Assembly (NCBI RefSeq): GCF_026261605.1 | Contig: NZ_CP102486.1 | Coordinates: 3,534,001-3,598,000, forward strand | Length of the DNA stretch: 64,000 nucleotides | DNA from: Dechloromonas sp. A34 | GTDB lineage: Bacteria; Pseudomonadota; Gammaproteobacteria; Burkholderiales; Rhodocyclaceae | Direction: 5' to 3' | Shown: positions 7,549-32,542 of the stretch, piece by piece | Numbering within the stretch: the stretch's first letter is position 1 | How the letters are laid out: the number at the start of each line of letters is the position of its first letter | Notes under the pieces: generated by a model | Seen by the model: only the letters and a program-made list of their open reading frames with translations | Database searches by the model: none | What the model was told of the DNA's origin: nothing | Position numbers and translations under genes: made by a program

Positions 7549-8081
7549 TGAACGAACTGACCCTGGTCATCGACGACGACCCCAGCTTCAACGCCATTCT
7601 CGTCCGCACCCTCGAAAGACGGGGCCACCCTGCCCAGGGCGTACTCAATCCGGGCGATGCGCTGGCCGCGGCCAGCCAGACCCTGGCCGGGCGGGTCGTC
7701 CTCGACCTCAATCTGAACGGCAGTTCGGGGCTGGCTCTGATTCCCCCGCTGCTGGCCATCAACCCGGATTGCCGCATCGTCGTGCTGACCGGCTACGCCA
7801 GCATTGCCACCGCGGTCGATGCGGTCAAGCTTGGCGCCGTCCAGTACCTCGCCAAGCCCGTCGAAATCGAAGCCATCCTGGCCGCCTTCGAGGCCGACGA
7901 CAGCCCTAATATCGACCAACCGGCTTCCGACGAACCGCTCTCGGTCGATCGGCTGGAATGGGAACACATCCAGCGCGTCCTCAACGAGAACGACGGCAAC
8001 ATTTCGGCCACCGCCCGCGCCCTGAAAATGCATCGCCGCACTCTGCAGCGCAAGCTGTCGAAACGACCGGTCCGGACCTGA
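7548..8081 (+). CDS. regA: Response regulator, RegA/PrrA/ActR family
   Basis: A 177-residue regulator with a receiver domain (acidic pocket DDD near residues 9-11, phospho-acceptor Asp53, conserved KP near the domain end). It ends in a short Fis-type helix-turn-helix (ISATARALKMHRRTLQRKLSKR) typical of RegA. It is coupled to the RegB-like kinase by a one-base overlap. RegA proteins bind degenerate GC-rich sites and adjust respiratory, fixation and denitrification genes to oxygen and redox state. At 177 residues it matches the usual RegA length. No obvious terminator follows, and the gene converges on the MlaC-like gene. Confidence 0.88.
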   Translation: MNELTLVIDDDPSFNAILVRTLERRGHPAQGVLNPGDALAAASQTLAGRVVLDLNLNGSSGLALIPPLLAINPDCRIVVLTGYASIATAVDAVKLGAVQYLAKPVEIEAILAAFEADDSPNIDQPASDEPLSVDRLEWEHIQRVLNENDGNISATARALKMHRRTLQRKLSKRPVRT

Positions 8082-11016: not shown

Positions 11017-11121
11017 TGTGTTTCCTGGCCCGTAGCCAATGACGATTGAGCATTTTCCTTCATCGCAAAGCTTCGGAATTAGCAGACATCAATTTTTTCA
11101 CACTTCGCTCGGAATAGAGTG

Positions 11122-11138
11122 TGCGACAAATTGCCGCA
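11122..11138. promoter_or_regulatory. Palindromic element upstream of nosZ copy 1
   Basis: TGCGACAAATTGCCGCA, an imperfect palindrome with seven of eight pairs matching around a central A, centred 77 bp before the nosZ ATG. A one-base variant lies at nearly the same distance before the second nosZ although the surrounding sequence differs, so it is a good operator candidate. The regulator is unknown. Confidence 0.5.
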
Positions 11139-11206: not shown

Positions 11207-13504
11207 ATGAAAAAATTTGTTGTGAAATCCACCGTGCTGCTGGTAGCAGCCGGTATCGGCTGGGGAGCGGCGAGTACGGCGTGGTCGGCCGAATCGCTGC
11301 AGGACGTGATGAAGCGTCGGGGCCTGAGCCAGCAGGATCTGCTGGCCGCGTCCAAGACCTATGTCCCGACCGGCAAGCGCGACGAGTTCCTGGCCTTCAG
11401 TTCGGGCGGTCAGTCCGGTCAGGTCATCGTCTATGGTATTCCGTCGATGCGCATCCTGAAGTACATCGGCGTGTTCACGCCGGAACCGTGGCAGGGCTAT
11501 GGCTTCGACGAGAATTCCAAGGCCGTGCTGCGCCAGGGCAACATCGACGGCAAGGAAATCAACTGGGGCGACACGCACCACCCGGCGATTTCCGAAACCC
11601 AGGGCAAGTACGACGGCCAGTTCCTGTTCATCAACGACAAGGCCAACCCGCGCCTCGCCGTGATCGACCTGCGCGACTTCGAGACCAAGCAGATCGTGGT
11701 CAATCCGATCTTCAAGTCGGAACACGGCGGCGCTTTCGTGACGCCGAATTCCGAGTACGTCATCGAAGCCGCCCAGTACGCCACGCCGCTCGAGAACAAG
11801 AAGTTCCAGCCGCTCGAGGAGTTCAACGAGAAGTATCGCGGTGGCATCACTTACTGGAAGTTCGACAGGAAGGAAGGCCGCATCGATCCGAAGCAGTCGT
11901 TCTCGCTCGAACTGCCGCCCTACTCTCAGGATTTGTCGGATGCCGGTAAAGGTCCCTCCGATGGCTGGTCGTTCACCAACTCTTTCTGTTCCGAGCGTTA
12001 CGTCGGCGGCATCGAGAAGGGTCGTCCGCCGTATGAAGCCGGCTGTTCCGCCAAGGACACCGACTATCTGCACGTGATCAACTGGAAGAAGGCGGCCGAG
12101 CTGGTCGCCGCCGGCAAGGCCAAGACCATCAACGGCCACAAGGTGCTGATGATGGAAACCGCGATCAAGGAAGGCATCCTCTTCCTGGTTCCGGAACCGA
12201 AATCGCCGCACGGCGTCGATGTCACCCCGGACGGCAAGTTCCTGACCGTCGCCGGCAAGCTCGACACCCATGTCTCGGTCTTCTCCTTCGAGAAGATCCA
12301 GGCGGCGATCAAGGCCGGCAAGTTCGAATCCAAGGATCCGTACGGCATTCCGGTGATCGGCATGAAGGATGCGCTGCATGCCCAGGTCCAGCTCGGCCTC
12401 GGCCCGCTGCATACCCAGTACGATTCGAAGCCGTGTATCGCCTACACCTCACTGTATGTCGATTCCCAGGTCGTCAAATGGAATCACTGTGAAGGCAAGG
12501 TGCTCGACAAGATCTCCGTGCATTACAACATCGGTCACCTGATGACCATGGAGGGTGATTCGGCCGATCCGAAGGGGCGTTATCTGGTGGCGCTGAACAA
12601 GTTGTCGATCGATCGTTTCAACCCGGTGGGCCCGCTTCATCCGCAGAACCATCAGTTGATCGATATTTCGAACGACAAGATGCAGCTCCTCTACGACATG
12701 CCCTTGCCGCTCGGTGAGCCGCACTACGTGGTCGCCATCGAAGCCGCCAAGCTGAAGCCGGGCGTCCGTTACAAGGTGGGTACCGATTCCCGTACCGACA
12801 AGCCGCATCCGGGCATGGTTCGCGCCGGCGAGGAGGAAACCACCAAGAAGGGCAACAAGATCGAGGTCAAGGGTACGCTGATCCGTTCGCACATCACGCC
12901 GGAAACGATCGAGGCGGAAGTCGGCGACGAAATCACCATTCACCTGACCAACCTCGAACGGGCCCAGGATGAAACCCACGGTTTCGCGGTGTCGACTTAC
13001 AACGTCCATGCCTCCATCGAGCCGGGCAAGACGGTGACCGTCAAGTTCAAGGCCGACAAGGAAGGCGTCTATCCGTACTACTGCACGGAGTTCTGCTCGG
13101 CGCTGCACCTTGAAATGCAGGGTTACCTGCTGGTCAAGCCGAAGGGCTGGAAGCCGGGTAAGACCCAGGAAGCCGCCAAGGCCAACTACACCGAAGCCGA
13201 CTACAAGGCGACTGTGAAGAAGGTGGTGGATACCCAGGTCGTCATCGATTCCGTGGTCGGCTACATCACCAGCGTCAATTACAAGGACTTCCCGGATGTC
13301 GTGGCGATGGTCGAGGACGCTACCGATCAGCTCAACAAGATGAAGGATGCCAAGGCCAAGCACGAAGCCGCTGCCGCCAAGAAGGATTGGGACCAGGCCA
13401 ACCTCTGGGCCGAGCAGGTCTGGCAGTACCAGGTCAAGGCCGCCGACATCGGCCTGCGTGCAAAAACCTACCTCGAGCAGAACGGCGCTAAGAAGACGAA
13501 ATAA
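11207..13504 (+). CDS. nosZ: Nitrous oxide reductase, clade II (copy 1)
   Basis: A 765-residue periplasmic enzyme reducing N2O to N2. The N-terminal seven-bladed propeller carries the DTHH motif and further histidines for the CuZ centre. The C-terminal cupredoxin domain has the CuA ligand set (YCTEFCSALHLEM). The leader is a plain Sec signal without twin arginines (MKKFVVKSTVLLVAAG...AWSAE), which together with nosB nearby defines clade II. About 100 residues of charged helix follow the CuA domain in place of the C-terminal haem domain of epsilonproteobacterial enzymes. The ATG follows an AGGGGAG site. It is nearly identical to the copy at 18394, but the leader and promoter differ. A terminator follows, so it is probably monocistronic. 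Confidence 0.97.
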   Translation: MKKFVVKSTVLLVAAGIGWGAASTAWSAESLQDVMKRRGLSQQDLLAASKTYVPTGKRDEFLAFSSGGQSGQVIVYGIPSMRILKYIGVFTPEPWQGYGFDENSKAVLRQGNIDGKEINWGDTHHPAISETQGKYDGQFLFINDKANPRLAVIDLRDFETKQIVVNPIFKSEHGGAFVTPNSEYVIEAAQYATPLENKKFQPLEEFNEKYRGGITYWKFDRKEGRIDPKQSFSLELPPYSQDLSDAGKGPSDGWSFTNSFCSERYVGGIEKGRPPYEAGCSAKDTDYLHVINWKKAAELVAAGKAKTINGHKVLMMETAIKEGILFLVPEPKSPHGVDVTPDGKFLTVAGKLDTHVSVFSFEKIQAAIKAGKFESKDPYGIPVIGMKDALHAQVQLGLGPLHTQYDSKPCIAYTSLYVDSQVVKWNHCEGKVLDKISVHYNIGHLMTMEGDSADPKGRYLVALNKLSIDRFNPVGPLHPQNHQLIDISNDKMQLLYDMPLPLGEPHYVVAIEAAKLKPGVRYKVGTDSRTDKPHPGMVRAGEEETTKKGNKIEVKGTLIRSHITPETIEAEVGDEITIHLTNLERAQDETHGFAVSTYNVHASIEPGKTVTVKFKADKEGVYPYYCTEFCSALHLEMQGYLLVKPKGWKPGKTQEAAKANYTEADYKATVKKVVDTQVVIDSVVGYITSVNYKDFPDVVAMVEDATDQLNKMKDAKAKHEAAAAKKDWDQANLWAEQVWQYQVKAADIGLRAKTYLEQNGAKKTK

Positions 13505-13531
13505 GCCATCCTGATGTTTCTGGATCGCAAG

Positions 13532-13557
13532 GGGGCAGAGCAATCTGCCCCTTTTTT
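13532..13557 (+). terminator. Intrinsic terminator after nosZ copy 1
   Basis: GGGGCAGA / TCTGCCCC stem with a GCAA tetraloop and six T residues, 28 bp after the nosZ stop codon. Confidence 0.85.
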
Positions 13558-13691
13558 CGTTCCTCGCGCAAGCTGGGTAAACTGGCGTGGATACCCCGCC
13601 TGAGCTAACCTCTAGACGATTATCACCGTTTCATCTCCGAGCCGCAGCGCGGTCGCGGAGAACCAGTGCCACAGGGGTCCTGAGCCGCAAA

Positions 13692-16304
13692 ATGCCGTCA
13701 AAACATAATTTCTCGAGCCGTTGGCCGGGCGGCAAGATGGTCCTGTTGGCAATCGTCATCTGGACCGTGCTCGTCCTCGTCTCGCTGCTCACCCAGCGCG
13801 AGCAGTTGAACCGGACGGCCAGCGCCCTGGCTCGCATCGATGCCGTCGCCAATCTCAAGAAAGACATGTCGATCCGGAAGTGGGCCTCCAATGCCAAAGG
13901 GGTTTTCATCCTCGAGGAGCACATTCCGCCGATCAATTCGCTGGACGAAGAAGAACGGCTCACAGCGATCCGCAGCAATGGTGAAACCTTGCGTCTGGTC
14001 ACCGTTACCCCGATCCATCTGTTGCTGGCGATTCAGGAGGCGAGCAATCAGAACGCGGCGGGCAGCCGCGAACGGCTGACCTCGAAACAGCTGCGCAACA
14101 TGGACAACGCCCCGGACGACTGGGAACAAAAAGCGCTGACTGCCCTGGAGCAAGGTGGCGAGATGGTCACCGAAGTCCTGCCCAAAAAAGGCAAGCATGG
14201 ACTGATGCGGGCGATGATCCCGATGCGCATGGAAGAGGAATGCCTCGAATGCCACCGCGATACGCTGGTCCCGGTCGGAGGCCTGCGCGGCGGCGCCACC
14301 ATCTCGATCAACCTGAACGCCTATCGGACGGCCCAGCAACCGACCTGGCGGGCCATTCAATACTGGCACTTCGGGATCTGGATCCTCGGGCTGAGCGCAC
14401 TGTTCACCTTTGCTTATTTCGCGCATCGCCGCAGCATGGAAAAGCTGCGCAGCGACGAGGAGCGCCGCGAGAACGAGATGGCTTTTGCGGCGATGGCGGA
14501 AGGCGCCATCATTACCGATCCGACAGGACGAATACTCTGGGTAAACGATGCTTTTTGCCGCATTTCGGGCTATTCGCGGGACGAAGTGATCAACCAGAAC
14601 CCTCGCCTGCTCAAATCCGGCATCCATGACGAAGCGTTTTACCAGAAGCTGTGGGCCCAGCTCACCACTATCGGCCACTGGCGCGGCGAACTCTGGAACC
14701 AACGCAAGACCGGGGAAATCTTCCCCGAGGAAATATCGATTCAGGCGCTCAAGGGACCGGACGGCAATATCAGGCGTTTCATCTCGATCTTTTCGGAAAT
14801 CTCGGAGCGCAAGCGCAACGAGAAGGCCTTGCAGGAGTACCAGGAACACCTCGAGGACTTGGTGCGCCAGCGCACCGAGGAACTGACCGAGGCGCGCGAC
14901 GAGGCGGAGGCCGCCAACCGCTCGAAATCGACTTTCCTCGCCAACATGAGTCATGAGCTGCGCACGCCGCTCAATGCCGTGATCGGCTTTTCGCAATTGA
15001 TGGAAAAGGACCCGCAGCTCAACCCGACCCAGCGCCGCAATGTCGAAATCATCAACAGTTCCGGCAACCACCTGCTGACGCTGATCAACGACATCCTGGA
15101 ACTGTCCAAGATCGAATCGGGAAAGATGGAAGTGTGCGTCGAAGAGGTCGATCTGCCCGAACTGCTCGAAGGCATAGTCAACATGATGAGCCTGCGCGCC
15201 GAGCAGAGCGGCCTTGCCCTGAAGCTGGATTTACGCTCCCCGCCTCGCTCGGTGATGCTCGATCCGGTCATGTTGCGGCAGGTGCTGCTCAACCTGCTGT
15301 CCAATGCCATCAAGTTCACGCCGGAAGGCTCGGTGACGCTCGCTGTCGAGGCCAGCGAGGCGGGCGATGACCGCCTGCAGCTGGCTTTTCGCGTAACCGA
15401 TACCGGGATCGGCATCCGTGCGGAAGATCATTCGCGCATCTTCAATTCCTTCGAGCAGGTCGGCGGCACGCGCCAGGGGGGAACCGGTCTCGGGCTAACG
15501 ATCAGCCAGCAGTACGTGCGGATGATGGGCGGCGATCTGCTGCTTGAGTCGGCACCCAACCAGGGCTCCACCTTCAGCTTCGTGATTGCCGTAGCAAGCG
15601 GCAAGACGGCGGGAAGCAAAGCCGCCAAGGGACGCGTCACCGGCATCGAACCGCCGGATCACGGCCAACGCATCCTGATCGTCGACAACATTCCGGAAGC
15701 CCGGCTACTCGTCAGGTCGCTGCTTGAGCCGCTCGCTTTCAGGGTCAGCGAAGCCTCCACTGCGGCCGAAGCCGAGGCAGAAATCGCGAGCGGGCAGCCG
15801 GATCTGATTTTCATGGACTGGTTCCTGCCCGGCGACAACGGTCTCGAACTGATCAAGCGACTACGCACTCGAAGCGGCATCAGGCAGCCACGCCTCGTCA
15901 TGCTGACCGCCAATGCGACGCAAGACAGCCGGCAGCAAGCCCTGCAGGCCGGCGCCAACGATTTTCTCAGCAAGCCTTATGAAGAAGACGAGCTGTTAAA
16001 AATCCTGGAAAAACATCTTCCCCTACACCTGAGCCGCGAGCCGGTGCCGATATCACAGGCCGAGCGCGTCTCGCCAAATGCCGTCCCCAGGATCAACGCC
16101 GAAGATCTGGCCCGCTTGAGCAGCGAAGCACGGACCCGACTTTCGCAGGCGGCGCTCTCGCTGAACCCGGAAAAAATTTCCGAGGCCTTGCACCTCATTG
16201 CCCGGGAAAACCCGGAACTCGCCGCGCGCCTTGGCGAATTCGCCAACACTCGCCAATATCAGGCCTTGTGGCAGGTACTGGGCATTCTCGAAGCAGAGGA
16301 ATAG
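13692..16304 (+). CDS. Hybrid sensor kinase with c-type haem-binding (DUF3365/Tll0287-like) sensor domain
   Basis: About 870 residues. A first membrane helix (~17-37) leads into a periplasmic domain (~40-220) of DUF3365/Tll0287 type holding a c-type haem motif, CLECH (Cys184, Cys187, His188), then GGLRGGATISI. A second helix (~223-245), a PAS domain, HisKA (NMSHELRTPL, His421), HATPase and a receiver domain (Asp709) follow. A covalently bound periplasmic haem would suit sensing of a gas (NO, N2O, O2) or redox state. It lies between two nosZ genes and is followed within 2 bp by a REC-kinase gene and then a NarL-type regulator. The ATG at 13692 was chosen because it precedes the membrane helix closely; its ribosome site is weak and an upstream start is possible. 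Confidence 0.8.
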   Translation: MPSKHNFSSRWPGGKMVLLAIVIWTVLVLVSLLTQREQLNRTASALARIDAVANLKKDMSIRKWASNAKGVFILEEHIPPINSLDEEERLTAIRSNGETLRLVTVTPIHLLLAIQEASNQNAAGSRERLTSKQLRNMDNAPDDWEQKALTALEQGGEMVTEVLPKKGKHGLMRAMIPMRMEEECLECHRDTLVPVGGLRGGATISINLNAYRTAQQPTWRAIQYWHFGIWILGLSALFTFAYFAHRRSMEKLRSDEERRENEMAFAAMAEGAIITDPTGRILWVNDAFCRISGYSRDEVINQNPRLLKSGIHDEAFYQKLWAQLTTIGHWRGELWNQRKTGEIFPEEISIQALKGPDGNIRRFISIFSEISERKRNEKALQEYQEHLEDLVRQRTEELTEARDEAEAANRSKSTFLANMSHELRTPLNAVIGFSQLMEKDPQLNPTQRRNVEIINSSGNHLLTLINDILELSKIESGKMEVCVEEVDLPELLEGIVNMMSLRAEQSGLALKLDLRSPPRSVMLDPVMLRQVLLNLLSNAIKFTPEGSVTLAVEASEAGDDRLQLAFRVTDTGIGIRAEDHSRIFNSFEQVGGTRQGGTGLGLTISQQYVRMMGGDLLLESAPNQGSTFSFVIAVASGKTAGSKAAKGRVTGIEPPDHGQRILIVDNIPEARLLVRSLLEPLAFRVSEASTAAEAEAEIASGQPDLIFMDWFLPGDNGLELIKRLRTRSGIRQPRLVMLTANATQDSRQQALQAGANDFLSKPYEEDELLKILEKHLPLHLSREPVPISQAERVSPNAVPRINAEDLARLSSEARTRLSQAALSLNPEKISEALHLIARENPELAARLGEFANTRQYQALWQVLGILEAEE

Positions 16305-16306
16305 AA

Positions 16307-17416
16307 ATGAACGCCGAAATTCTGGTCGTCGAGGATACGCCAGCCTCTCTCGAACTACTCTCCCAACTCCTGTCCCAGGCCGGCTACACGGTGCGTCCGG
16401 CGCTTGAGGGACGGATGGCTTTGCGCTCGGCCCAAGCCAGCCCGCCCGACCTGATCCTGCTCGATGTGCGGATGCCGGGGATTGACGGCTATGAGGTCTG
16501 CCAGCGATTGAAGGCCGACCCGAGGACCCGCGACATTCCCGTCATTTTCCTGTCGGCCCTGCGCGAAGCGGGTGACAAGTTGAAGGGTTTCGAACTGGGG
16601 GCCGTCGACTACATTGCCAAACCGTACCAGCCGGAAGAGGTGCTGGCCCGCGTGCGTACCCATGTCGAGCTGCGCCAGTTGCAGTCGCGGCTCGAAGAGC
16701 GGGTCGGCGAGCGTACCGCCCAACTGCTCGAAGCGCAGACCAGCCTTCACGAATCGCAGACCCGCCTGCAGGAACTGGCCGGCTTCCTGCAAACCGTGCG
16801 CGAAGAGGAACGTTCGGGCATCGCCCGCGAACTGCATGATGAACTCGGTCAGGCCCTGACTGCCTTGCGCATCGACCTCGGCTGGCTCAAGGACAAATGC
16901 GGCCAACTCGGGCCGCCGGTGGTACAGCGTGCCGAAGCGGCATACGGCCTGGTCGAACGGACGATCGCCTCCTTGCGCCGGATTTCCGAAGGCCTGCGTC
17001 CCGGCATGCTCGATGTACTCGGGCTGGCCGCGGCGATCGAGCATCATGTCAGCCAGTTTCAGGAACGGACCGGCATCGCCTGTACGCTGACCATGAACAG
17101 GGAGGAATTCGCCATCGACGGAGCATTGGCCACGGCCATTTTCCGGCTCATCCAGGAATCGCTGACCAATGTCGCGCGGCACGCCGCGGCGCAACACATC
17201 GCCGTCGGGATCGACGAAAGTGACGGCGAGATCAGGGTGCGCGTCGAAGACGACGGCTGCGGCTTCGTAACCACCAGCGCAAAGAAGACTTTTGGCCTGC
17301 TCGGCATGCAGGAAAGAGTCAAAATACTGGGCGGACGTATCGAAATCGTCAGCCAGCCGGGACAAGGAACGTGCATCGATGCGCGCCTCCCGAAACAGCG
17401 AGGGGAAAGCAAATGA
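16307..17416 (+). CDS. Receiver-domain histidine kinase (REC + HisKA_3, NarX-like kinase core)
   Basis: A 369-residue soluble protein: receiver domain (phospho-acceptor Asp53, KP at the end), a coiled-coil linker (~120-165), then a NarX/DegS-type kinase core with ARELHDELGQ (His177) and an ATPase domain with DDGCGF and GLLGMQER. It has no sensor domain of its own, so its input is probably phosphorylation of Asp53 by the upstream haem kinase or another kinase. Its HisKA_3 core is the type that phosphorylates NarL-family regulators such as the next gene. The start follows AGAGG by 8 nt; the end overlaps the next gene by 4 bp. This gives a plausible relay of haem kinase, REC-kinase and LuxR-type regulator. 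Confidence 0.85.
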   Translation: MNAEILVVEDTPASLELLSQLLSQAGYTVRPALEGRMALRSAQASPPDLILLDVRMPGIDGYEVCQRLKADPRTRDIPVIFLSALREAGDKLKGFELGAVDYIAKPYQPEEVLARVRTHVELRQLQSRLEERVGERTAQLLEAQTSLHESQTRLQELAGFLQTVREEERSGIARELHDELGQALTALRIDLGWLKDKCGQLGPPVVQRAEAAYGLVERTIASLRRISEGLRPGMLDVLGLAAAIEHHVSQFQERTGIACTLTMNREEFAIDGALATAIFRLIQESLTNVARHAAAQHIAVGIDESDGEIRVRVEDDGCGFVTTSAKKTFGLLGMQERVKILGGRIEIVSQPGQGTCIDARLPKQRGESK

Positions 17417-18069
17417 TCCGGATACTGATTGCCGATGACCACGACATCCTGCGCGCCGGCCTCAAACACATCCTGCAGGACAGCGGCGACATCGTCGTCG
17501 GCGGCGAAGCCAGCGACGGCTACCAGGTCCTGACCCAGGTCCGCGCCGAAAAATGGGACGCCATCGTGCTCGACCTGTCGATGCCGGGCAAGAGCGGCAT
17601 CGAACTGATCAAGCAGATCAAGGGGGAATTTCCCCGCCTGCCCATCCTGATCCTCAGCATGCACAAGGAAGACCTCTACGCCGTGCGCGCTCTGAAAGCC
17701 GGCGCTTCCGGTTACCTGTGCAAGGACAGCGCGGAAACCCTGCTCGTTCAGGCCATCCGCAAGGTCGCCGGGGGTGGCCTGTTCATCGATCAGGCGGTGG
17801 CCGAAAAACTGGCCGTCGACATGCTGACCGGGAGCAGTGGCGGCGCTCCCCACAGCCGCCTGACCGACCGCGAATACCAGATCTTCCTGCTGGTGGCGCG
17901 CGGCCACGGGGTTACCGACATCAGCCGCCAGCTGAATCTGAGCGTCAAGACCGTGAGCACGCACAAGACGCGGATTCTGGAAAAAATGGAGCTGGCCAAC
18001 ACCGCCGACCTGATCCACTACGCCATCCGGCACAACCTGGTCGATGGCGTAGACAGCCTGGCCGAGTAA
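17413..18069 (+). CDS. NarL/FixJ-type response regulator
   Basis: A 218-residue transcription factor: receiver domain with phospho-acceptor Asp54 (VLDLSMPG) and a LuxR-type helix-turn-helix (LTDREYQIFLLVARGHGVTD...LSVKTVSTHKTRI). It overlaps the REC-kinase gene by 4 bp and follows an AGGGGAAAG ribosome site, so the three signalling genes form one operon. Since it lies between two nosZ genes, it is the most likely direct regulator of one or both, perhaps through the palindrome shared by their upstream regions. That target is inference. Confidence 0.88.
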   Translation: MIRILIADDHDILRAGLKHILQDSGDIVVGGEASDGYQVLTQVRAEKWDAIVLDLSMPGKSGIELIKQIKGEFPRLPILILSMHKEDLYAVRALKAGASGYLCKDSAETLLVQAIRKVAGGGLFIDQAVAEKLAVDMLTGSSGGAPHSRLTDREYQIFLLVARGHGVTDISRQLNLSVKTVSTHKTRILEKMELANTADLIHYAIRHNLVDGVDSLAE

Positions 18070-18393
18070 ATACGCCATCCGCCGGCCGGCACTCCAAGCC
18101 GGCTGGTCAGCCGACGACAGCGTCGGCCGCCACTGCTCTCCCTATGTGCGATAACGCACAGAAAAATTTCGGACGGTAGACCAGGATCATAACGCCAGTG
18201 TCATCGCTAGGAATATTCCTACAATACCCCTGGCGTCTTCCCACCGCGGGAATCAGTTGTCCTTACCTGTCTTCCGCTATCCGTCGAGCCTACACTGCCC
18301 CACATGCGACAGATTGCCGCAGTGGCATTTCACCGCAAGGCAATGCAGTCGGAACAAGAAGTAGAACTTCAATCGATACATGGGAGTGTCAAT
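18070..18393 (+). other. Intergenic region carrying the promoter of nosZ copy 2
   Basis: 324 bp with no gene. Near the left end is a GCCGACG/CGTCGGC hairpin (18110-18127) without a T tract, perhaps ending the regulator mRNA. Further right lies the palindrome shared with nosZ copy 1. No canonical FNR-type TTGAT-N4-ATCAA site and no convincing -35/-10 pair were found. Confidence 0.6.
18305..18321. promoter_or_regulatory. Palindromic element upstream of nosZ copy 2
   Basis: TGCGACAGATTGCCGCA differs from the copy-1 element by one central base and is centred 81 bp before the ATG (77 bp in copy 1). The sequence around it is otherwise unrelated to the copy-1 upstream region. Confidence 0.5.
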
Positions 18394-20691
18394 ATGAAAA
18401 CCCGTATAAAACAAACCGTCACCGTGCTGGTAGCAGCCGGAATTGGCTGGGGAGCGGCGAGTACGGCGTGGTCGGCCGAATCGCTGCAGGACGTGATGAA
18501 ACGTCGTGGTCTGAGCCAGCAGGATCTGCTGGCTGCATCCAAGACTTATGTCCCGACCGGCAAGCGTGATGAGTTCCTGGCCTTCAGTTCGGGCGGTCAG
18601 TCCGGTCAGGTCATCGTCTATGGCATCCCGTCGATGCGCATCCTGAAGTACATCGGCGTGTTTACACCGGAACCCTGGCAGGGCTACGGCTTCGACGAGA
18701 ACTCCAAGTCCGTGCTGCGCCAGGGCAATATCGACGGCAAGGAAATCAACTGGGGCGATACGCACCACCCGGCGATTTCCGAAACCCAGGGCAAGTACGA
18801 CGGCCAGTTCCTGTTCATCAACGACAAGGCCAACCCGCGCCTCGCCGTGATCGACCTGCGCGACTTCGAGACCAAGCAGATCGTGGTCAATCCGATCTTC
18901 AAGTCGGAACACGGCGGCGCCTTCGTGACGCCGAATTCCGAGTACGTCATCGAAGCCGCCCAGTACGCCACGCCGCTCGAGAACAAGAAGTTCCAGCCGC
19001 TCGAGGAGTTCAACGAGAAGTATCGCGGTGGCATCACTTACTGGAAGTTCGACAGGAAGGAAGGCCGCATCGATCCGAAGCAGTCGTTCTCGCTCGAACT
19101 GCCGCCCTACTCTCAGGATTTGTCGGATGCCGGTAAAGGCCCATCCGATGGCTGGTCGTTCACCAACTCTTTCTGTTCCGAGCGTTACGTCGGCGGCATC
19201 GAGAAGGGTCGTCCGCCGTATGAAGCCGGCTGTTCCGCCAAGGACACCGACTATCTGCACGTGATCAACTGGAAGAAGGCGGCCGAGCTGGTCGCCGCCG
19301 GCAAGGCCAAGACCATCAACGGCCACAAGGTGCTGATGATGGAAACCGCGATCAAGGAAGGCATCCTCTTCCTGGTTCCGGAACCGAAATCGCCGCACGG
19401 CGTCGATGTCACCCCGGACGGCAAGTTCCTGACCGTCGCCGGCAAGCTCGACACCCATGTCTCGGTCTTCTCCTTCGAGAAGATCCAGGCGGCGATCAAG
19501 GCCGGCAAGTTCGAATCCAAGGATCCGTACGGCATTCCGGTGATCGGCATGAAGGATGCGCTGCATGCCCAGGTCCAGCTCGGCCTCGGCCCGCTGCATA
19601 CCCAGTACGATTCGAAGCCGTGTATCGCCTACACCTCACTGTATGTCGATTCCCAGGTCGTCAAATGGAATCACTGTGAAGGCAAGGTGCTCGACAAGAT
19701 CTCCGTGCATTACAACATCGGTCACCTGATGACCATGGAGGGTGATTCGGCCGATCCGAAGGGGCGTTATCTGGTGGCGCTGAACAAGTTGTCGATCGAT
19801 CGTTTCAACCCGGTGGGCCCGCTTCATCCGCAGAACCATCAGTTGATCGATATTTCGAACGACAAGATGCAGCTCCTCTACGACATGCCCTTGCCGCTCG
19901 GTGAGCCGCACTACGTGGTCGCCATCGAAGCCGCCAAGCTGAAGCCGGGCGTCCGTTACAAGGTGGGTACCGATTCCCGTACCGACAAGCCGCATCCGGG
20001 CATGGTTCGCGCCGGCGAGGAGGAAACCACCAAGAAGGGCAACAAGATCGAGGTCAAGGGTACGCTGATCCGTTCGCACATCACGCCGGAAACGATCGAG
20101 GCGGAAGTCGGCGACGAAATCACCATTCACCTGACCAACCTCGAACGGGCCCAGGATGAAACCCACGGTTTCGCGGTGTCGACTTACAACGTCCATGCCT
20201 CCATCGAGCCGGGCAAGACGGTGACCGTCAAGTTCAAGGCCGACAAGGAAGGCGTCTATCCGTACTACTGCACGGAGTTCTGCTCGGCGCTGCACCTTGA
20301 AATGCAGGGTTACCTGCTGGTCAAGCCGAAGGGCTGGAAGCCGGGTAAGACCCAGGAAGCCGCCAAGGCCAACTACACCGAAGCCGACTACAAGGCGACT
20401 GTGAAGAAGGTGGTGGATACCCAGGTCGTCATCGATTCCGTGGTCGGCTACATCACCAGCGTCAATTACAAGGACTTCCCGGATGTCGTGGCGATGGTCG
20501 AGGACGCTACCGATCAGCTCAACAAGATGAAGGATGCCAAGGCCAAGCACGAAGCCGCTGCCGCCAAGAAGGATTGGGATCAGGCCAATCTCTGGGCCGA
20601 GCAGGTCTGGCAGTACCAGGTCAAGGCCGCCGACATCGGCCTGCGTGCCAAGACCTATCTCGAGCAGAACGGCGCTAAGAAGACGAAGTAG
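18394..20691 (+). CDS. nosZ: Nitrous oxide reductase, clade II (copy 2)
   Basis: 765 residues, the same length as copy 1, with the CuZ propeller and CuA cupredoxin domains. After the leader (MKTRIKQTVTVLVAAG... against MKKFVVKSTVLLVAAG...), the only amino-acid difference I find is Ser for Ala at residue 106. At DNA level the first ~750 bp carry scattered synonymous changes, the next ~1.4 kb look identical, and a few changes reappear in the last ~120 bp; this is the pattern left by gene conversion. This copy heads the long nos cluster (cytochromes, nosBDGH, nosFLY) and has its own 5' region. A GGGAG ribosome site lies before the ATG. Confidence 0.97.
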   Translation: MKTRIKQTVTVLVAAGIGWGAASTAWSAESLQDVMKRRGLSQQDLLAASKTYVPTGKRDEFLAFSSGGQSGQVIVYGIPSMRILKYIGVFTPEPWQGYGFDENSKSVLRQGNIDGKEINWGDTHHPAISETQGKYDGQFLFINDKANPRLAVIDLRDFETKQIVVNPIFKSEHGGAFVTPNSEYVIEAAQYATPLENKKFQPLEEFNEKYRGGITYWKFDRKEGRIDPKQSFSLELPPYSQDLSDAGKGPSDGWSFTNSFCSERYVGGIEKGRPPYEAGCSAKDTDYLHVINWKKAAELVAAGKAKTINGHKVLMMETAIKEGILFLVPEPKSPHGVDVTPDGKFLTVAGKLDTHVSVFSFEKIQAAIKAGKFESKDPYGIPVIGMKDALHAQVQLGLGPLHTQYDSKPCIAYTSLYVDSQVVKWNHCEGKVLDKISVHYNIGHLMTMEGDSADPKGRYLVALNKLSIDRFNPVGPLHPQNHQLIDISNDKMQLLYDMPLPLGEPHYVVAIEAAKLKPGVRYKVGTDSRTDKPHPGMVRAGEEETTKKGNKIEVKGTLIRSHITPETIEAEVGDEITIHLTNLERAQDETHGFAVSTYNVHASIEPGKTVTVKFKADKEGVYPYYCTEFCSALHLEMQGYLLVKPKGWKPGKTQEAAKANYTEADYKATVKKVVDTQVVIDSVVGYITSVNYKDFPDVVAMVEDATDQLNKMKDAKAKHEAAAAKKDWDQANLWAEQVWQYQVKAADIGLRAKTYLEQNGAKKTK

Positions 20692-20768: not shown

Positions 20769-21077
20769 ATGAAATTCGTAATCACTCTGATCACCGCCGC
20801 GCTCGTCGCCGCACCCGCCATCGCCGCTCCGGACGGCGCCAAGCTGTTTGCCGAAAAGACCTGCAATGCCTGCCACGGCGCCAAGGCCGACAAGCCGCTG
20901 ATGCCCAACTATCCGAAGCTGGCCGGCCAGAACGCTGCCTATGCCGAACAGCAAATGAAGGACATCAAGAGCGGTGCCCGCAACAACGGTCAGACCGCCG
21001 CGATGAAGGGCGTCATGCACCTGGTCAACGACGAGGAAATCAAGGCGATCGCCGAGTACCTGTCGAAACTGAAATAA
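20769..21077 (+). CDS. Periplasmic monohaem cytochrome c
   Basis: A 102-residue exported class I cytochrome c: signal peptide (MKFVITLITAALVAAPAIAA), haem motif CNACH, and a Met in the C-terminal half (AAMKGVMHLV) as likely axial ligand. It lies 77 bp after nosZ copy 2. In clade II nos clusters small cytochromes c (often called NosC1/NosC2) are thought to carry electrons from the menaquinol/quinol side to NosZ, so an electron-donor role is likely. I have not given the nosC name because its use varies between organisms. Confidence 0.88.
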   Translation: MKFVITLITAALVAAPAIAAPDGAKLFAEKTCNACHGAKADKPLMPNYPKLAGQNAAYAEQQMKDIKSGARNNGQTAAMKGVMHLVNDEEIKAIAEYLSKLK

Positions 21078-21188
21078 GCCAGAAAAGCCCGGATTGCAGG
21101 GCATATGACAAACATCAATGAATGCTGATATTCATCAATCGATAATCAACCCAGCGTTCCGAATCACCCGCCACAAAGGATACCGAAC

Positions 21189-21914
21189 ATGAAAGCATCT
21201 CTTCTGCTGATCGGCCTGCTCAGCGCAGGCATCGCGATTGCCGCCCCGCCAGCCCCCAAACAGCAGGGCATCGAAGGCAAGGACTACAAATGGAACGCCC
21301 AGGAAGGCGAAAAGGTCGAGGCTTTGCACAAGAAAGGCGACGTCAAGAACGGCCAGGAAGTCTATGAAATCTGCGGCGCCTGCCACCTGCCCTCGGGTGC
21401 CGGTCGCCCGGACGGCACCTTCCCGCAGCTCGCCGGCCAGCACTCCACGGTGCTGATCAAGCAGATGGCCGACATCCGCGCCGGCCTGCGCGACAACCCG
21501 ACCATGTACCCCTTCGCCGCCACTCTGGTCGACCCGCAGGAACTTGCCGATGCCGCCGCCTACATCAACAGCCTGTGCATCCCGCTTGAGCATGGCAAAT
21601 ACGAGGGTCCGGATGCCGCGATGCAGGTCGCCAAGGGCAAGGATCTGTATGAAAAGCAGTGTCTGGAATGCCACGGCAAGAATGGCGAAGGCAACAAGGA
21701 AAAGTTCTACCCGGTCATCGCCGGCCAGCACTACAAGTACCTGTTGCGCCAGATGACTGAAATCCGCGACGGTCACCGCCGCAATGCAAATCCGGACATG
21801 GTCAAGGTCATCAAGCCCTACAGCAATGACCAGTTGGTGGCGATTTCCGCCTACCAGTCCAGCCTGGTGATGCCGGGCAACATGTGCAAGCCGAAGGCCG
21901 CCAAGAAGAAGTAA
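21189..21914 (+). CDS. Periplasmic diheme cytochrome c
   Basis: A 241-residue exported protein with two cytochrome c domains (haem motifs CGACH and CLECH), each with a PQLAGQ/PVIAGQ stretch and candidate Met ligands. It is similar in design to the diheme protein at 5543-6205 but has an extra N-terminal segment of ~40 residues and a Lys-rich tail. It is placed between the monohaem cytochrome c and nosB and probably passes electrons to N2O reductase. A 9-bp hairpin follows its stop before nosB. Confidence 0.88.
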   Translation: MKASLLLIGLLSAGIAIAAPPAPKQQGIEGKDYKWNAQEGEKVEALHKKGDVKNGQEVYEICGACHLPSGAGRPDGTFPQLAGQHSTVLIKQMADIRAGLRDNPTMYPFAATLVDPQELADAAAYINSLCIPLEHGKYEGPDAAMQVAKGKDLYEKQCLECHGKNGEGNKEKFYPVIAGQHYKYLLRQMTEIRDGHRRNANPDMVKVIKPYSNDQLVAISAYQSSLVMPGNMCKPKAAKKK

Positions 21915-21921
21915 GCGTTTT

Positions 21922-21942
21922 GCCCACCCGAGACGGGTGGGC
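21922..21942 (+). repeat. Perfect 9-bp hairpin between the diheme cytochrome and nosB genes
   Basis: GCCCACCCG, AGA loop, CGGGTGGGC. No T run follows, so it is more likely an mRNA-stabilising or processing structure than a terminator. Confidence 0.55.
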
Positions 21943-22012
21943 CGGGGGATGCGTATCCCGATCGGTGAATCAACACATCCCCCACCTCCTCATTCAAGCG
22001 GGAGGAATAGAG

Positions 22013-23017
22013 ATGCACGAGAACACAGAGAGAACAGCGAAAATGGAAAAGCAAAACAAAATCGTCGGCGGCCTGAGTCTGATCGCGCTGGTTGCGCTGA
22101 TCGCCGCCTATTTCGCACCGATCTGGTGGGTTTCCCTGACCGCTCCGAATTACCCGCCGGATGCCTTCCCGGACGGCATCCGCATCCACTTCCATTTCGA
22201 CGGGGTCTATAACGGCTGCACGGCAGCCGGCAAGGGCACGCGGATGGCCGGCGAGATCATCCAGAAGGATCTCTCCCATGAGGACGAACGCTACAACCCG
22301 ATCACCGACAGCAAGAAAGACCTGAACAAGGGTGCCGAAGGTCTCGATTGCGTCCATGAAATGAATACCATCAATCACTACGTCGGGATGTACCCGATCG
22401 CCACCGGCGCCCCGGTCGAAAAGCCTCTGGCCAAGTTCTTCTTCGGCTTCTTCGCGGTGATGATGCTGGCCTTTGCGACGACCACCAAAAAAGCCCGCCT
22501 GACCACCCTGGGCGCGGGATTCGCCGGGGTCGCCGCCTGGATGCTGATCGACCAGTTTGCCCTGGGCCATCTGGAAAGCCATGTCCAGGCCTACATGCAG
22601 GAATCCGGCACTTTCTTCAAGGACATGGAACGGATCAAGGTCTGGGGCGACAACGTCCGCAACATCTCGACCGTCGTCATCTTCGGGCTGATCGCGGTGA
22701 TGGGCGTGGTCATCGCCGGCGTCGCCAAGATTCGCCCCTTCCAGTTGCTACTGGCCCTGGTCCCCGCCCTGCTGCCGGTATTCTTCGTCATCACCTACGC
22801 CGGCTGGCTGTGGTTCTTCGGCCACAACATGCACCCGTGGGGCGCCTTCACCGTCAAGCCGTTCATGCCCACCGTGTTCGGCGAAGGCAAGGTCGCGCAG
22901 TTCTCGACTTTCTCCTACCCGTACTGGGGCTACGGCCTGCTGGTCATCATTTTCGTCTGCATGATGCTGGCGCTGCTGATTCGCCGCAAGCAACTGCGTG
23001 AAGGCCAGGTCGAGTAA
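22013..23017 (+). CDS. nosB: NosB-type membrane protein of clade II nos clusters
   Basis: A 334-residue inner-membrane protein with an N-terminal helix, a hydrophilic periplasmic loop (~40-130, with FHFDGVYNGCT and EGLDCVHEMNTINHYVGMYPI) and four to five further helices. This arrangement matches NosB, a marker gene of clade II clusters with unknown exact function, probably in electron supply to or maturation of NosZ. An ideal GGAGG site precedes the ATG at 22013; the in-frame sequence upstream overlaps the cytochrome gene and is not signal-like. nosD follows after 6 bp. Confidence 0.85.
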   Translation: MHENTERTAKMEKQNKIVGGLSLIALVALIAAYFAPIWWVSLTAPNYPPDAFPDGIRIHFHFDGVYNGCTAAGKGTRMAGEIIQKDLSHEDERYNPITDSKKDLNKGAEGLDCVHEMNTINHYVGMYPIATGAPVEKPLAKFFFGFFAVMMLAFATTTKKARLTTLGAGFAGVAAWMLIDQFALGHLESHVQAYMQESGTFFKDMERIKVWGDNVRNISTVVIFGLIAVMGVVIAGVAKIRPFQLLLALVPALLPVFFVITYAGWLWFFGHNMHPWGAFTVKPFMPTVFGEGKVAQFSTFSYPYWGYGLLVIIFVCMMLALLIRRKQLREGQVE

Positions 23018-23023
23018 GCGGTC

Positions 23024-24388
23024 ATGCGCACCCTGAGCAAACTCGGCAAGGCGACACTGGCGACTGCGCTGATGCTGGCCTTCAGCGTCGGCAACACGCA
23101 GCAGGAACGCGGCTCGAACGCCGATCTGAGTACCGCGCCACGGGTCGGCATCGACCGCCCGAAGCAGACCTTCATGCTCCACGAGCGCGACAAGCGGGTG
23201 CATGGCCTGAAACCCTTCCAGGAACTGGTCGACAATGCCCCCGCCGGTTCGGTACTCAAGCCGCCGCCCGGCATCTACGCCGGACCAGTGGTCATCGACA
23301 AGCCGCTGACCATCGATGGTGGCGACCAGGTCACCATCGACTCCGGCGACAAGGGTACGGTGATGATCCTGAACGCCAGCAATTCCGTGCTGCGCGGCCT
23401 CCACCTGACCGGTTCCGGCGATTCCCACGACACCGACGACTCCTGCCTCGACGTCCGCGGCAACCACAACGTGATCGAGAACATCAAGGCCGACAACTGC
23501 CTGTTCGGTCTGGATTTCAAGCAGTCCAACCACAACCTGATCCGCGGCAACGAAATCCGCTCCAAGGCCTTCGAACTCGGCGTCCGCGGCGACGGCCTGC
23601 GCCTCTGGTACAGCAACGACAATATCGTCGAGAAGAACCGCATCATCGACTCGCGCGACATGGTCGCCTGGTATTCGCACCGCAACATCTTCCGCGACAA
23701 TCTCGGCCGGCGCAGCCGCTATTCCATCCACTTCATGTTCGCCAACGACAACAGCGTCGAGCGCAACCAGTTCTACGACAACGCCGTCGGCGTGTACTTC
23801 ATGTACACCGAGGGCGGCACCGTCCGCAACAACGTGATTTCGCACGCCACCGGCGCCACCGGCATGGGCATCGGTTTCAAGGAAGCTTCCGGCACTCTGA
23901 TCGAGAACAACGAGATCATCTACTGCGGCATCGGCATCGGTTCCGATCTCTCGCCGTTCCAGCCCGACAGCAGTATCGAGATTCGCGGCAACCGCTTCGC
24001 CTACAATGGCATCGGCATCCTGTTCAACAGCGAGACCGGCGGCAACAACCTGCTCGGCAACACTTTCGAGGGCAACCTGACCCAGGTCGGCTACGGCGGC
24101 CACGGCGACAACAACAACAGCCCGAAAAACGTCTGGATCGGCAATTTCTGGGACGACTACCAAGGCTTCGACCGCGACGGCGACGGCGTCGGCGACCGCA
24201 CTCACGAACTCCACGCCTACGCCGACCAGATCTGGATGGAGATGCCGGTCGCCCGCTTCTTCCGCAGCTCACCGGTCATGGAACTGCTCGATTTCCTCGA
24301 GCGCCTGGCCCCCTTCTCGACACCCGACCTGATCCTGCGCGACGAGAAGCCACTCTTCAACAAACCGCAGCGGCTTGCCCAGTCATGA
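23024..24388 (+). CDS. nosD: NosD, periplasmic copper-site maturation protein
   Basis: A 454-residue exported protein with a Sec-type leader (MRTLSKLGKATLATALMLAFS) and a parallel beta-helix built of CASH/NosD repeats rich in Asn and Gly (for example NVIENIKADNCLFGLDFKQSNHNLIRGN). NosD works with the NosF/NosY ABC transporter in assembly of the CuZ centre of N2O reductase. It overlaps nosG by 4 bp (ATGA). Length and repeat pattern are normal for the family. Confidence 0.95.
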   Translation: MRTLSKLGKATLATALMLAFSVGNTQQERGSNADLSTAPRVGIDRPKQTFMLHERDKRVHGLKPFQELVDNAPAGSVLKPPPGIYAGPVVIDKPLTIDGGDQVTIDSGDKGTVMILNASNSVLRGLHLTGSGDSHDTDDSCLDVRGNHNVIENIKADNCLFGLDFKQSNHNLIRGNEIRSKAFELGVRGDGLRLWYSNDNIVEKNRIIDSRDMVAWYSHRNIFRDNLGRRSRYSIHFMFANDNSVERNQFYDNAVGVYFMYTEGGTVRNNVISHATGATGMGIGFKEASGTLIENNEIIYCGIGIGSDLSPFQPDSSIEIRGNRFAYNGIGILFNSETGGNNLLGNTFEGNLTQVGYGGHGDNNNSPKNVWIGNFWDDYQGFDRDGDGVGDRTHELHAYADQIWMEMPVARFFRSSPVMELLDFLERLAPFSTPDLILRDEKPLFNKPQRLAQS

Positions 24389-25239
24389 ACACCCCAGCCG
24401 AAATACCACGCAAGCCTGCCATTTCGATCGAGAAGGCACAGAAGGCCCGACGCAAGTTCCTGCGCTCGGTCGGCCTCGCCGGCGGGGTGATTGGTCTTTC
24501 GCTGCTCGGCTACATTCCCCTCGTCAATGCGCGGAATACCAAGCTGCGCCCGCCCGGCGCGCTCAACGAGGCCGACTTCCTTTCGTCGTGCATCAAGTGC
24601 GGCCAGTGCGTCCAGGTCTGCCCGGTACAGGCCATCAAGCTCGGCGACCTGGACGATGGTTTCGGCATCGGCGTCCCGTACATCGAATCGCGCGACCAGG
24701 CCTGCGATTTTTCCTGCGACGCCGTGCAATGCATCCTGGCCTGCCCGACCGGTGCCCTGACTTACAAGAAGCCGGCCTTCATGAATGTCCGCGAAGGCGC
24801 CCTGCTCGCTGCCGCGCCGATTCTGAAAGCCAAGGAAAAGGACGCCGAGAACACGCTGAATCTCAAGGAGCGCACCGGCATCGCCCGCCTGGCCCGCCCG
24901 GAATCCTGCCTCGCCGTGCAGGGCAAAGGCTTCAAGGGGCAAGCGCGGGGTGCCGCTTTCAAGGGCACCATGCGTTACATGGACGTCGACCGCTGGAAGC
25001 CGATTCCCGTGCGCGACCATCCCTACGACCTGCCGCTGTGCGATCTCTGCGTCCGTGAATGCCCGGTCAAGAACGCCATCGAACTGCGCCCGCTCACCGG
25101 CAGCGACGGGGTCGCGCGCATGACCCCGGTCGTCCTCGAGCCCTGCGTCGGCTGCGGCGTCTGCGAAATGATCTGCCCGGTCGAACCGGCCGCCATCGTC
25201 ATCGACGCCCAGGCGACCTGGAAGGGAGAGCAGGCATGA
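24385..25239 (+). CDS. nosG: NosG, polyferredoxin with four [4Fe-4S] clusters (NapG-like)
   Basis: A 284-residue protein with a twin-arginine-like leader (RRKFLRSVGLAGG) and four Cys-rich cluster motifs: CIKCGQCVQVCP, CDFSCDAVQCILACP, CDLCVRECP and CVGCGVCEMICP. With NosH it is thought to form a quinol-oxidising complex feeding electrons to periplasmic cytochromes and NosZ, replacing NosR, which is absent here. It overlaps nosD and nosH by 4 bp each. Confidence 0.93.
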   Translation: MNTPAEIPRKPAISIEKAQKARRKFLRSVGLAGGVIGLSLLGYIPLVNARNTKLRPPGALNEADFLSSCIKCGQCVQVCPVQAIKLGDLDDGFGIGVPYIESRDQACDFSCDAVQCILACPTGALTYKKPAFMNVREGALLAAAPILKAKEKDAENTLNLKERTGIARLARPESCLAVQGKGFKGQARGAAFKGTMRYMDVDRWKPIPVRDHPYDLPLCDLCVRECPVKNAIELRPLTGSDGVARMTPVVLEPCVGCGVCEMICPVEPAAIVIDAQATWKGEQA

Positions 25240-26201
25240 GCCGCTTTGCCGATCTGTTCATGGGCATGCTCGGGGCCGCCCCGAAAAAGCCGGAGAAAGT
25301 CACTGACCAGGTCCAGAAGATCATGTTCCTCAAGTACGAGGACAAGGACCGTTACATCAAGGAAAAGCTCCACGCCCGCGAGCACCACGCGATCAGCCAC
25401 AAGTGGCGCAACCGCCGGTGGGCGGTGCTGATCGCAACCAACCTACTGTTCGTCTTCTCCTTCTGGCTCGATATCCAGATCCTCGAGGGTGCGCTGACCG
25501 CCTCGCGCTTCGTGGGTTTCCACCTGATCGACCTCAATTCGGCGCTGCAGGTAATGCTGGCCCACAAGCACATCATCGTTAACCTGGTGATCGGCACCTT
25601 CACCGTCTTCCTGCTCTGGGTGCTGCTGGGCGGCCGGACCTTCTGCTCCTGGGTCTGCCCCTACCACCTGCTGGCGGAATGGACGGAAGCCCTGCACCTG
25701 AAGCTGGTCGAGAAGAAGATAGTCACCGACCACGAATTCCACCGCGGTACACGCACCGTCTTCTGGCTGCTCTTCGCGCTGCTCGCCATCGTCACCGGCT
25801 ACACCGTGTTCGAAACGCTGTCGCCGACCGGTATCCTGTCACGCGCCCTGATCTACGGCCCGGGCCTGGCGCTGGGTTGGGTCGGCCTGCTGCTGCTCTT
25901 CGAGACTTTCTACTCGCGCCGTGCCTGGTGCCGCTACGTCTGCCCGATCGGCCTGACCTACGGCGCGGTGGGAGCGATCTCGCCGCTGCAGATCACCTAC
26001 CACGTCGAACACTGTTTCCATGAGGGCGACTGCCGCAAGGTCTGCCTGGTGCCGCACGTCCTCGATGTCACCGTCAAAGGCCGGGCCAGCGAGGAACAGA
26101 TGGGCCTCGGCCCGGACTGCACGCGCTGCGGCCTGTGCGTCGACATCTGCCCGAGCGGCGCCCTGCGCTATGAGGTCAAGGGATTGTCGAAGCTGCTCTG
26201 A
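25236..26201 (+). CDS. nosH: NosH, membrane quinol dehydrogenase (NapH-like)
   Basis: A 321-residue inner-membrane protein with four or five helices. Two CxxxCP motifs follow helices (CSWVCP and CRYVCP), and a C-terminal ferredoxin region has two cluster motifs (CFHEGDCRKVCLVP and CTRCGLCVDICP), the NapH plan. With NosG it probably takes electrons from the quinol pool for N2O reduction. It starts with an ATG overlapping the nosG stop (ATGA). The downstream gene nosF begins 51 bp later, where the duplicated block starts. Confidence 0.93.
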   Translation: MSRFADLFMGMLGAAPKKPEKVTDQVQKIMFLKYEDKDRYIKEKLHAREHHAISHKWRNRRWAVLIATNLLFVFSFWLDIQILEGALTASRFVGFHLIDLNSALQVMLAHKHIIVNLVIGTFTVFLLWVLLGGRTFCSWVCPYHLLAEWTEALHLKLVEKKIVTDHEFHRGTRTVFWLLFALLAIVTGYTVFETLSPTGILSRALIYGPGLALGWVGLLLLFETFYSRRAWCRYVCPIGLTYGAVGAISPLQITYHVEHCFHEGDCRKVCLVPHVLDVTVKGRASEEQMGLGPDCTRCGLCVDICPSGALRYEVKGLSKLL

Positions 26202-26252
26202 TGCCCTACTCAAGCGCACCATTTACCGCAGCGCCCTTCCTATAATCGCCCC

Positions 26253-27104: not shown

Positions 27105-27106
27105 TC

Positions 27107-28420: not shown

Positions 28421-28467
28421 AAAAAATATTCTCTGCTCTGGCAATAAAGATCAACGACTGGCACTGA
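28417..28467 (+). pseudogene. Truncated tlpA-like gene (16 codons) at the end of repeat copy 1
   Basis: The first eight codons match the intact tlpA-like gene at 33853 (KKIFSAL), including the TTG start overlapping the nosY stop. At 28441 the sequence switches to unrelated DNA and stops after eight more codons. It marks the right breakpoint of the duplication. Confidence 0.85.
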
Positions 28468-31614: not shown

Positions 31615-31688
31615 GCGCTGCCGAGCGGCATCCCCGAATTTTGATCCAGGTTCAAGGTCGATCACCTGCGCCTTCCTATAATCGCCCC

Positions 31689-32540: not shown

Positions 32541-32542
32541 TC

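Follow-up and report, generated by a model that had tools for sequence, protein, structure and literature searches.

We identified a three-gene signalling module predicted to control nitrous oxide (N2O) respiration in a 64,000-nucleotide stretch of the Dechloromonas sp. A34 genome (contig NZ_CP102486.1, positions 3,534,001 to 3,598,000; hereafter, the window). The module lies between two clade II nosZ genes, nosZ1 and nosZ2, and encodes a hybrid histidine kinase with a haem-type sensor (HK1), a second kinase (HK2) and a LuxR-type response regulator (RR). Comparison of genomes leads us to regard the haem-sensor relay as real, conserved and linked to clade II nosZ. In the mechanism we propose, haem c held covalently in a periplasmic Cache domain would detect a gas, with nitric oxide (NO) the leading candidate, or a redox change, HK1 would hand the signal to the receiver (REC) domain of HK2, and the HisKA_3 core of HK2 would phosphorylate RR. 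Phosphorylated RR would then bind the palindrome TAGGAA-NN-TTCCTA (the T site) and activate nosZ2 with the cytochrome-nos operon behind it, leaving nosZ1 to an FNR/DNR-type activator; given such separate promoters, the near-identical enzymes would answer different inputs. We consider the wiring (relay to T site to nosZ2) quite probable, and the entire explanation, in which N2O respiration has a phosphorelay of its own, somewhat more probable than its negation.

The biological sink for N2O depends on the enzyme NosZ, and bacteria of clade II are regarded as strong consumers of the gas. What triggers nosZ expression in these bacteria is poorly known; the module supplies a concrete sensor, relay, candidate operator and target, so that the question of what N2O reducers sense becomes directly testable. 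The window also offers a natural experiment, with two near-identical NosZ enzymes behind two different promoters in one cell.

A three-gene relay conserved beside clade II nosZ

The module genes are closely spaced (2 bases between HK1 and HK2, an ATGA overlap between HK2 and RR), which suggests a single operon, and given the terminator-like repeat after nosZ1 this operon may have its own promoter (Table 1). The Pfam scan assigned the PAS and HATPase domains of HK1 to PAS_9 and HATPase_c, and inspection of the protein sequence by eye suggests a pair of membrane helices, at about residues 15-35 and 226-246. The initial annotation had described the second kinase as lacking a sensor but carrying a receiver and a NarX-type core, and had a LuxR-type regulator completing the set. 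Both descriptions hold: HK2 is a soluble REC-HisKA_3-HATPase_c protein with no further Pfam family at E <= 0.001, and RR is REC plus GerE (scanned in frames slightly longer than the ATG-started proteins). Catalytic residues are intact across relatives, with the HK1 His kept in 18/18 and its REC Asp in 17/18, the HK2 REC Asp in 18/18 and its His in 17/18 (the one gap, L005, is cut by a contig end), and the phospho-acceptor Asp of RR in 34/34. The nearest named relatives of HK1 are Dechloromonas proteins (90 and 88% identity over the sensor).

We surveyed 199 genomes of the family (G and L numbers denote genomes and loci of the comparison set). Sensor matches at 1e-10 were found in 80, among which a distinct close group of 25 genomes covering 15 genera stood out (E <= 1.7e-81, next match 1e-35); these are the module genomes. 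NosZ-II scored over cut-off in 52/199 genomes. Of the genomes over cut-off, 31 had no close sensor, and 30 of these served for comparison after G077 was dropped for its fragmentary match. The module adjoins nosZ in 23/25 genomes: nosZ-II lies within about 5 kb of the sensor on the same contig in 19, and in G001, G003, G008 and G066, where contigs are 3-5 kb, the 3' end of nosZ is just upstream of the sensor gene. In G062 an assembly gap lies upstream of the sensor and the sole nosZ-II match is on a different contig, and in G107 nosZ is 70 kb from the module. Class-wide, the close sensor was found in 1/369 genomes, namely this one. Named loci in metagenome-assembled genomes of Sulfuricella and Hydrogenophilales (L011, L012) also have it and one protein is labelled Thiohalomonadaceae, so the module is not restricted to one family.

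The gene order had been taken to suggest a relay from signal through hybrid kinase and REC-kinase to regulator. Wherever the contig is long enough, an HK2-type core and RR come after the sensor (in L011 after a gap of about 4.7 kb). Of the classed sensors, 17/36 are fused directly to a HisKA_3-HATPase core, with or without PAS, in proteins of 482-620 amino acids that go without a hybrid kinase and a separate REC-HK2; Pfam agrees on three examples. In a tree of 37 sensors, parsimony gave 5 switches between the two architectures, at least 4 of them on well-supported branches. As the same sensor and RR occur with and without the inserted kinase, the comparison supports a signal order of sensor, HisKA_3 core, RR. 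These architectures are consistent with the proposed order, refined in that many related modules do without the hybrid kinase, though they are no proof of phosphotransfer from HK1 to HK2. Duplicate loci were dropped from the counts (L009, L010 and L018 are the contigs of L058, L062 and L065), as was L014 (the L064 contig) from the tree and residue counts and L105, whose gene start is at a contig end, from the promoter counts.

A candidate operator and proposed split control of the two nosZ copies

The T-site pattern emerged from aligned nosZ promoters, before the nosZ genes that lie downstream of RR, and tests on other material weigh most since the motif was defined on those promoters. Where nosZ directly follows RR, 14/15 rows (12/13 distinct) match at 11 or more of the 12 positions (L069 at 9); a score of 11 was attained by 1/1280 mononucleotide shuffles. 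Allowing one mismatch, the 30 module loci (403 kb) contained 26 T sites and the 36 other loci (530 kb) contained one, as against means of 0.9 and 1.0 for 24 permuted half-sites, the commonest of which gave about equal numbers (14 and 17). Such a site is present in 24/30 module loci. The remainder comprise two loci that stop before RR (L012, L082), two with two-mismatch versions in place (L060, L076), one with a weak site (L069) and the G107 module (L079). The sole site of the non-module set is a perfect one before the unlinked G107 nosZ (L080), an exception that favours control in trans. In whole genomes, perfect T sites were found in 12/25 with the module and 0/30 nosZ-II genomes without (Fisher 1.2e-5, too small a value given that related species are not independent; the 12 genomes represent 8 genera); the reversed pattern was found in 1/55.

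Several observations weigh against this assignment. Perfect T sites are missing from 13/25 module genomes, though most of these have one-mismatch versions. L117 (G173) has a 10/12 match and no module was found, on a 5.6 kb contig from a genus with three module genomes. T sites are often found immediately after the RR gene, and linkage thus contributes to the association. In four loci (L006, L007, L011 and L058) what follows the T site is a Crp/Fnr-type gene instead of nosZ (Pfam made this assignment for two of the four genes and NCBIfam for three, none over cut-off); in these loci the relay may act on the nos genes via that regulator. Because the T site is the first element behind RR in most module loci, it could belong to another regulator or be a transcript-end element travelling with the module, but we consider this very improbable given the site before the unlinked nosZ of L080, sites between fixH-like and nosZ or sensor genes (L063, L067) or between divergent nosZ and sensor genes (L071, and L076 with 2 mismatches), a site in L075 that is 1.8 kb past RR yet 190 bases upstream of nosZ, the absence of perfect sites from the 30 nosZ-II genomes without the module, and paralogous RRs that also have T sites in 3 genomes. 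A mere RR-end element was rejected on the same unlinked and divergent arrangements. RR binding to the T site, with activation as opposed to repression, is what we infer.

Paralogous regulators point the same way. With up to one mismatch allowed, the A34 genome has one further T site, which separates a paralogous RR (56% identical) from a cytochrome set. G174 and G198 repeat this type of arrangement with RRs 54-55% identical (gene names by reading), in G088 a comparable small cytochrome c gene at the edge of a contig has a T site in front of it but no adjoining RR, and contig 36 of G179 has one near a cytochrome c gene. The T site thus seems to be used by a clade of RRs, not by this RR alone. 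At the A34 paralogous locus (L119, G000:C1:523500-527800), a dCache-PAS-HisKA_3 kinase and LuxR-type regulator are followed by the T site and then by cytochrome c, multihaem cytochrome and MtrB/PioB porin genes, which makes that regulator a candidate controller of outer-membrane electron transfer.

The module's place between nosZ genes, which had led the initial annotation to name N2O or NO as interesting possible ligands, was borne out: nosZ1 and nosZ2 each score about 932 bits to TIGR04246 (cut-off 625), and from ESLQDVM onward they are identical at 737/738 aligned residues and 2186/2214 bases. Their promoters differ. We classed nosZ promoters by T matches of at least 10/12 and by matches of at least 8/10 to the FNR/DNR-like box TTGAT-N4-ATCAA (F) at -260 to -55, and found among 61 promoters 15 with T only, 36 with F only, 2 with both and 8 with neither; the two with both have 8/10 F matches, one of which overlaps the T site. 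The T site tends to occupy the place of the FNR/DNR-like box of other nosZ promoters, the two being largely mutually exclusive. In five two-nosZ loci (L061, L073, L074, L077, L078) the first copy has F and the second T, as does L069, weakly; in the window, the nosZ1 promoter has a 7/10 F-like remnant and the nosZ2 promoter a perfect T site. The link to N2O respiration, supported by the conserved T site, is thereby refined, with nosZ2 and its operon as the predicted target, not both copies. We propose that the genes behind nosZ2 (Table 1) are co-transcribed with it.

A second palindrome, the R box, precedes most nosZ-II genes of the family. This palindrome, TGCGRCAWATTGYCGCA, was noticed before the T site and considered as the RR site, and was dropped, as the box precedes nosZ with and without the module. 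Its pattern TGCGNCANNTTGNCGCA occurs at three places in the 4.76 Mb genome (reversed control, none): before nosZ1, before nosZ2 and at G000:C1:4658763-4658779 (L118:5764-5780). The F box lies 43 bases upstream of the R box in 25/36 promoters, and the T-to-R distances in nine promoters are 72, 74, 74, 75, 92, 94, 96, 97 and 147 bases. The two main T distances are about two helical turns apart, as would fit an activator touching RNA polymerase, and the R box would mark the start point should F act near -41. The R box fits a RegA/PrrA-type site. About 3 kb upstream of nosZ1 (6292-7548 and 7548-8081) is a RegB/RegA-like redox pair, near SCO-like and copper-chaperone-like genes on the opposite strand; RegB/RegA is the top family for both proteins, below the curated cut-offs (233.9/350 and 163.6/250 bits). 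This pair is the likely user of the R box, and a RegA-like gene was found in 12/69 nos loci.

Other features were noted around these genes. The third R box is flanked by a Crp/Fnr gene on one side and a TonB receptor on the other, with a second TonB receptor adjoining that has some resemblance to copper receptors (130/472 bits). A third nosZ-like gene (G000:C1:2097345-2099090; 484.5 bits to the clade II profile, cut-off 625) is probably clade I. A direct repeat of 2210 bases (26231-28440 and 31668-33876, 99.96% identical), in which lie nos-cluster genes for a small protein, a membrane protein and an ABC-type ATPase, is a recent duplication.

Table 1. Features of the module, its neighbouring nosZ genes and related loci (window positions unless a locus is named).
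Feature	Position	Strand	Basis
HK1 hybrid kinase, 870 amino acids: PF11845-PAS-HisKA (His421)-HATPase-REC (Asp709)	13692..16304	+	Pfam profile scan
CLECH haem c motif, HK1 residues 184-188	14241..14255	+	motif conserved in relatives
HK2 kinase, 369 amino acids from ATG: REC (Asp53)-HisKA_3 (His177)-HATPase_c, without sensor domain	16307..17416	+	Pfam scan
RR, 218 amino acids from ATG: REC (Asp54) and LuxR/GerE DNA-binding domain	17413..18069	+	Pfam scan
T site TAGGAATATTCCTA, candidate RR operator, 186 bases upstream of nosZ2 ATG	18208..18221	.	promoter comparison
nosZ2 (clade II, Sec-type), proposed target	18394..20691	+	TIGR04246 score
Two cytochromes c, nosB-like, nosD-like, nosG-like and nosH-like genes behind nosZ2	20769..26201	+	named by resemblance
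nosZ1, nearly identical to nosZ2, promoter without T site	11207..13504	+	TIGR04246 score, promoter scoring
F-like site TTAGCAGACATCAA, 7/10 to TTGAT-N4-ATCAA, 43 bases upstream of nosZ1 R box	11079..11092	.	
R box TGCGACAAATTGCCGCA before nosZ1	11122..11138	.	shared by loci with and without module
R box TGCGACAGATTGCCGCA before nosZ2	18305..18321	.	promoter comparison
Terminator-like inverted repeat and T run, 3' of nosZ1	13530..13559	+	read from sequence
Crp/Fnr-type genes directly behind T site and RR	L006:12515-13339, L007:5160-5996, L011:12555-13364, L058:8366-9148		

The predicted haem sensor domain and its candidate signals

The periplasmic sensor region of HK1 (about residues 29-219) matches PF11845 (sCache_heme, Tll0287-like; DUF3365) at residues 92-190 with 46.2 bits against a cut-off of 24.1, the lowest of the four PF11845 matches in the single-contig genome. 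The DUF3365-type domain and CLECH motif (Cys184, Cys187, His188) named by the initial annotation are both present, correctly numbered; C184 and C187 are the sole Cys of the region, and CXXCH is kept in 37/37 distinct module sensors and 63/63 rows of a wider alignment. A first AlphaFold2 model (16 close sequences) had a pLDDT of 47.8 and was not used. In the structure model, the predicted fold is a Cache fold that agrees with Tll0287; Foldseek matches to it include GSU0935 and GSU0582, neither of which is among the 50 rows of a further structure listing. PDB sequence searches with the sensor, the sensor profile and one relative gave no convincing chain, and a PF11845 paralogue from the same genome matched Tll0287 at 1e-8. 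These results support a c-haem-type domain, in which the haem c is presumably covalent. The pocket differs from that of other family members: Val or Ala replaces His68, His109 replaces Tyr, and Met59, His169, Met178 and Met180 also set module sensors apart. The module sensors form their own subfamily within sCache_heme, with an altered pocket.

By family precedent, NO is the likeliest signal, though at somewhat less than even odds. HK1 has a fused signalling output and no axial Cys, as in Cluster 2 of sCache_heme, whose NO sensors release NO slowly and form no stable O2 complex; the only signalling-fused relative with published tests behaves as an NO, not O2, sensor (2026 preprint, PMC12889525). 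Two points count against NO: the rebuilt pocket weakens inference from the family, and 8/25 module genomes lack a cytochrome d1 (PF02239) match and would not make NO from nitrite by that route. The match is absent from 2/30 other genomes (p 0.03), and counting a weak G066 match as absent raises the module figure to 9/25 (p 0.015); restriction to genomes of 90% completeness or more gives 6/22 vs 2/27 (p 0.12), and the excess is only suggestive. PF02239 also takes in NirS relatives, so a match is no proof of NirS. NirK was over cut-off in 0/55 genomes, its lower matches being long in G088, G003 and G110 and otherwise mostly short and on nosZ; PF22085, a NorB probe, gave none over cut-off in 14 genomes including this one and is uninformative on NO reductase. 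Should the cytochrome d1 trend hold up, the cell would be sensing an external signal, either NO or N2O released by neighbours or redox state.

Through the same relay the haem could instead read periplasmic redox state, with oxidation or reduction changing the axial ligand and thereby switching the kinase; the cell would then express nosZ2 once electrons accumulate or acceptors become scarce. This fits the retention of Met59 and His109 in module sensors, which nearly all of 52 other family members lack at those positions, and it needs no NO source in the cell; GSU0582 and GSU0935, two haem c sensors that share this fold, have been described as switching spin state in a redox-linked way, with Met60 as a ligand (PMC8396549). 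We nevertheless find it rather unlikely, since the preprint gives redox roles to Cys-ligated members that stand alone and has the signalling fusions sense NO (PMC12889525), and a RegB/RegA-like redox pair already lies close to the nos locus. Less likely again is N2O itself, or O2, as the ligand. The attachment of the module to nosZ in 23/25 genomes, some without a cytochrome d1 match, and the unusual pocket would suit this, but N2O is a weak haem ligand, we know of no haem N2O sensor, and tested family members form no stable O2 complex (PMC12889525). Our results favour N2O over neither NO nor redox state. A bolder version, that the sensor answers to N2O or N2O-linked outside NO and has displaced FNR/DNR control at clade II nosZ, is a long shot; were this correct, bacteria making no NO would still be able to start respiring N2O on its arrival, and the two nosZ copies would be divided between inner and outer signals.

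Comparison with known systems

HK1 shares with characterized sCache_heme proteins (PF11845; PMC12889525; structures 5b82, 3b42, 3b47) the family, CXXCH, Cache fold, periplasmic site and kinase fusion, and differs in its changed pocket, weak PF11845 score (46 bits) and tie to nosZ. Its hybrid kinase core and proposed NO role resemble NahK/NosP NO signalling, but it scores below cut-off (near_NosP_CTERM 199/400, NahK 138/1500), and its haem domain is extracytoplasmic and an integral part of the kinase. A HisKA_3 core with a LuxR/GerE regulator is common to the module and NarX/NarQ-NarL, whereas HK2 (84/578 bits for NarX, 113/553 for NarQ) and RR (126/250 for NarL) fall far below the cut-offs, and the sensor and operator are different. 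NarL sites are heptamers.

The wiring is the new part of the finding; the gene arrangement was already printed for the nosZ1/nosZ2 locus of D. aromatica RCB by Salinero et al (2009; PMC2907700), in whose text on the locus neither haem sensor nor operator is named and the system is called a nitric oxide reductase region. In other papers, transcription of nosZ Daro_1575 was followed in D. aromatica RCB (PMC6593283) and RegA-dependent nos genes of Rhodobacter were tabulated (PMC5359404). Within open-licence literature, we found no report of a T-site operator or haem sensor for nosZ, which is no proof of absence, and searching by the letters of the motif returned nothing relevant. A parallel in promoter layout is FNR/DNR control, with DNR boxes before nosZ on record (PMC1274295). 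Both systems place a conserved palindrome before nosZ, but at the module's predicted target TTGAT-N4-ATCAA is replaced by TAGGAA-NN-TTCCTA.

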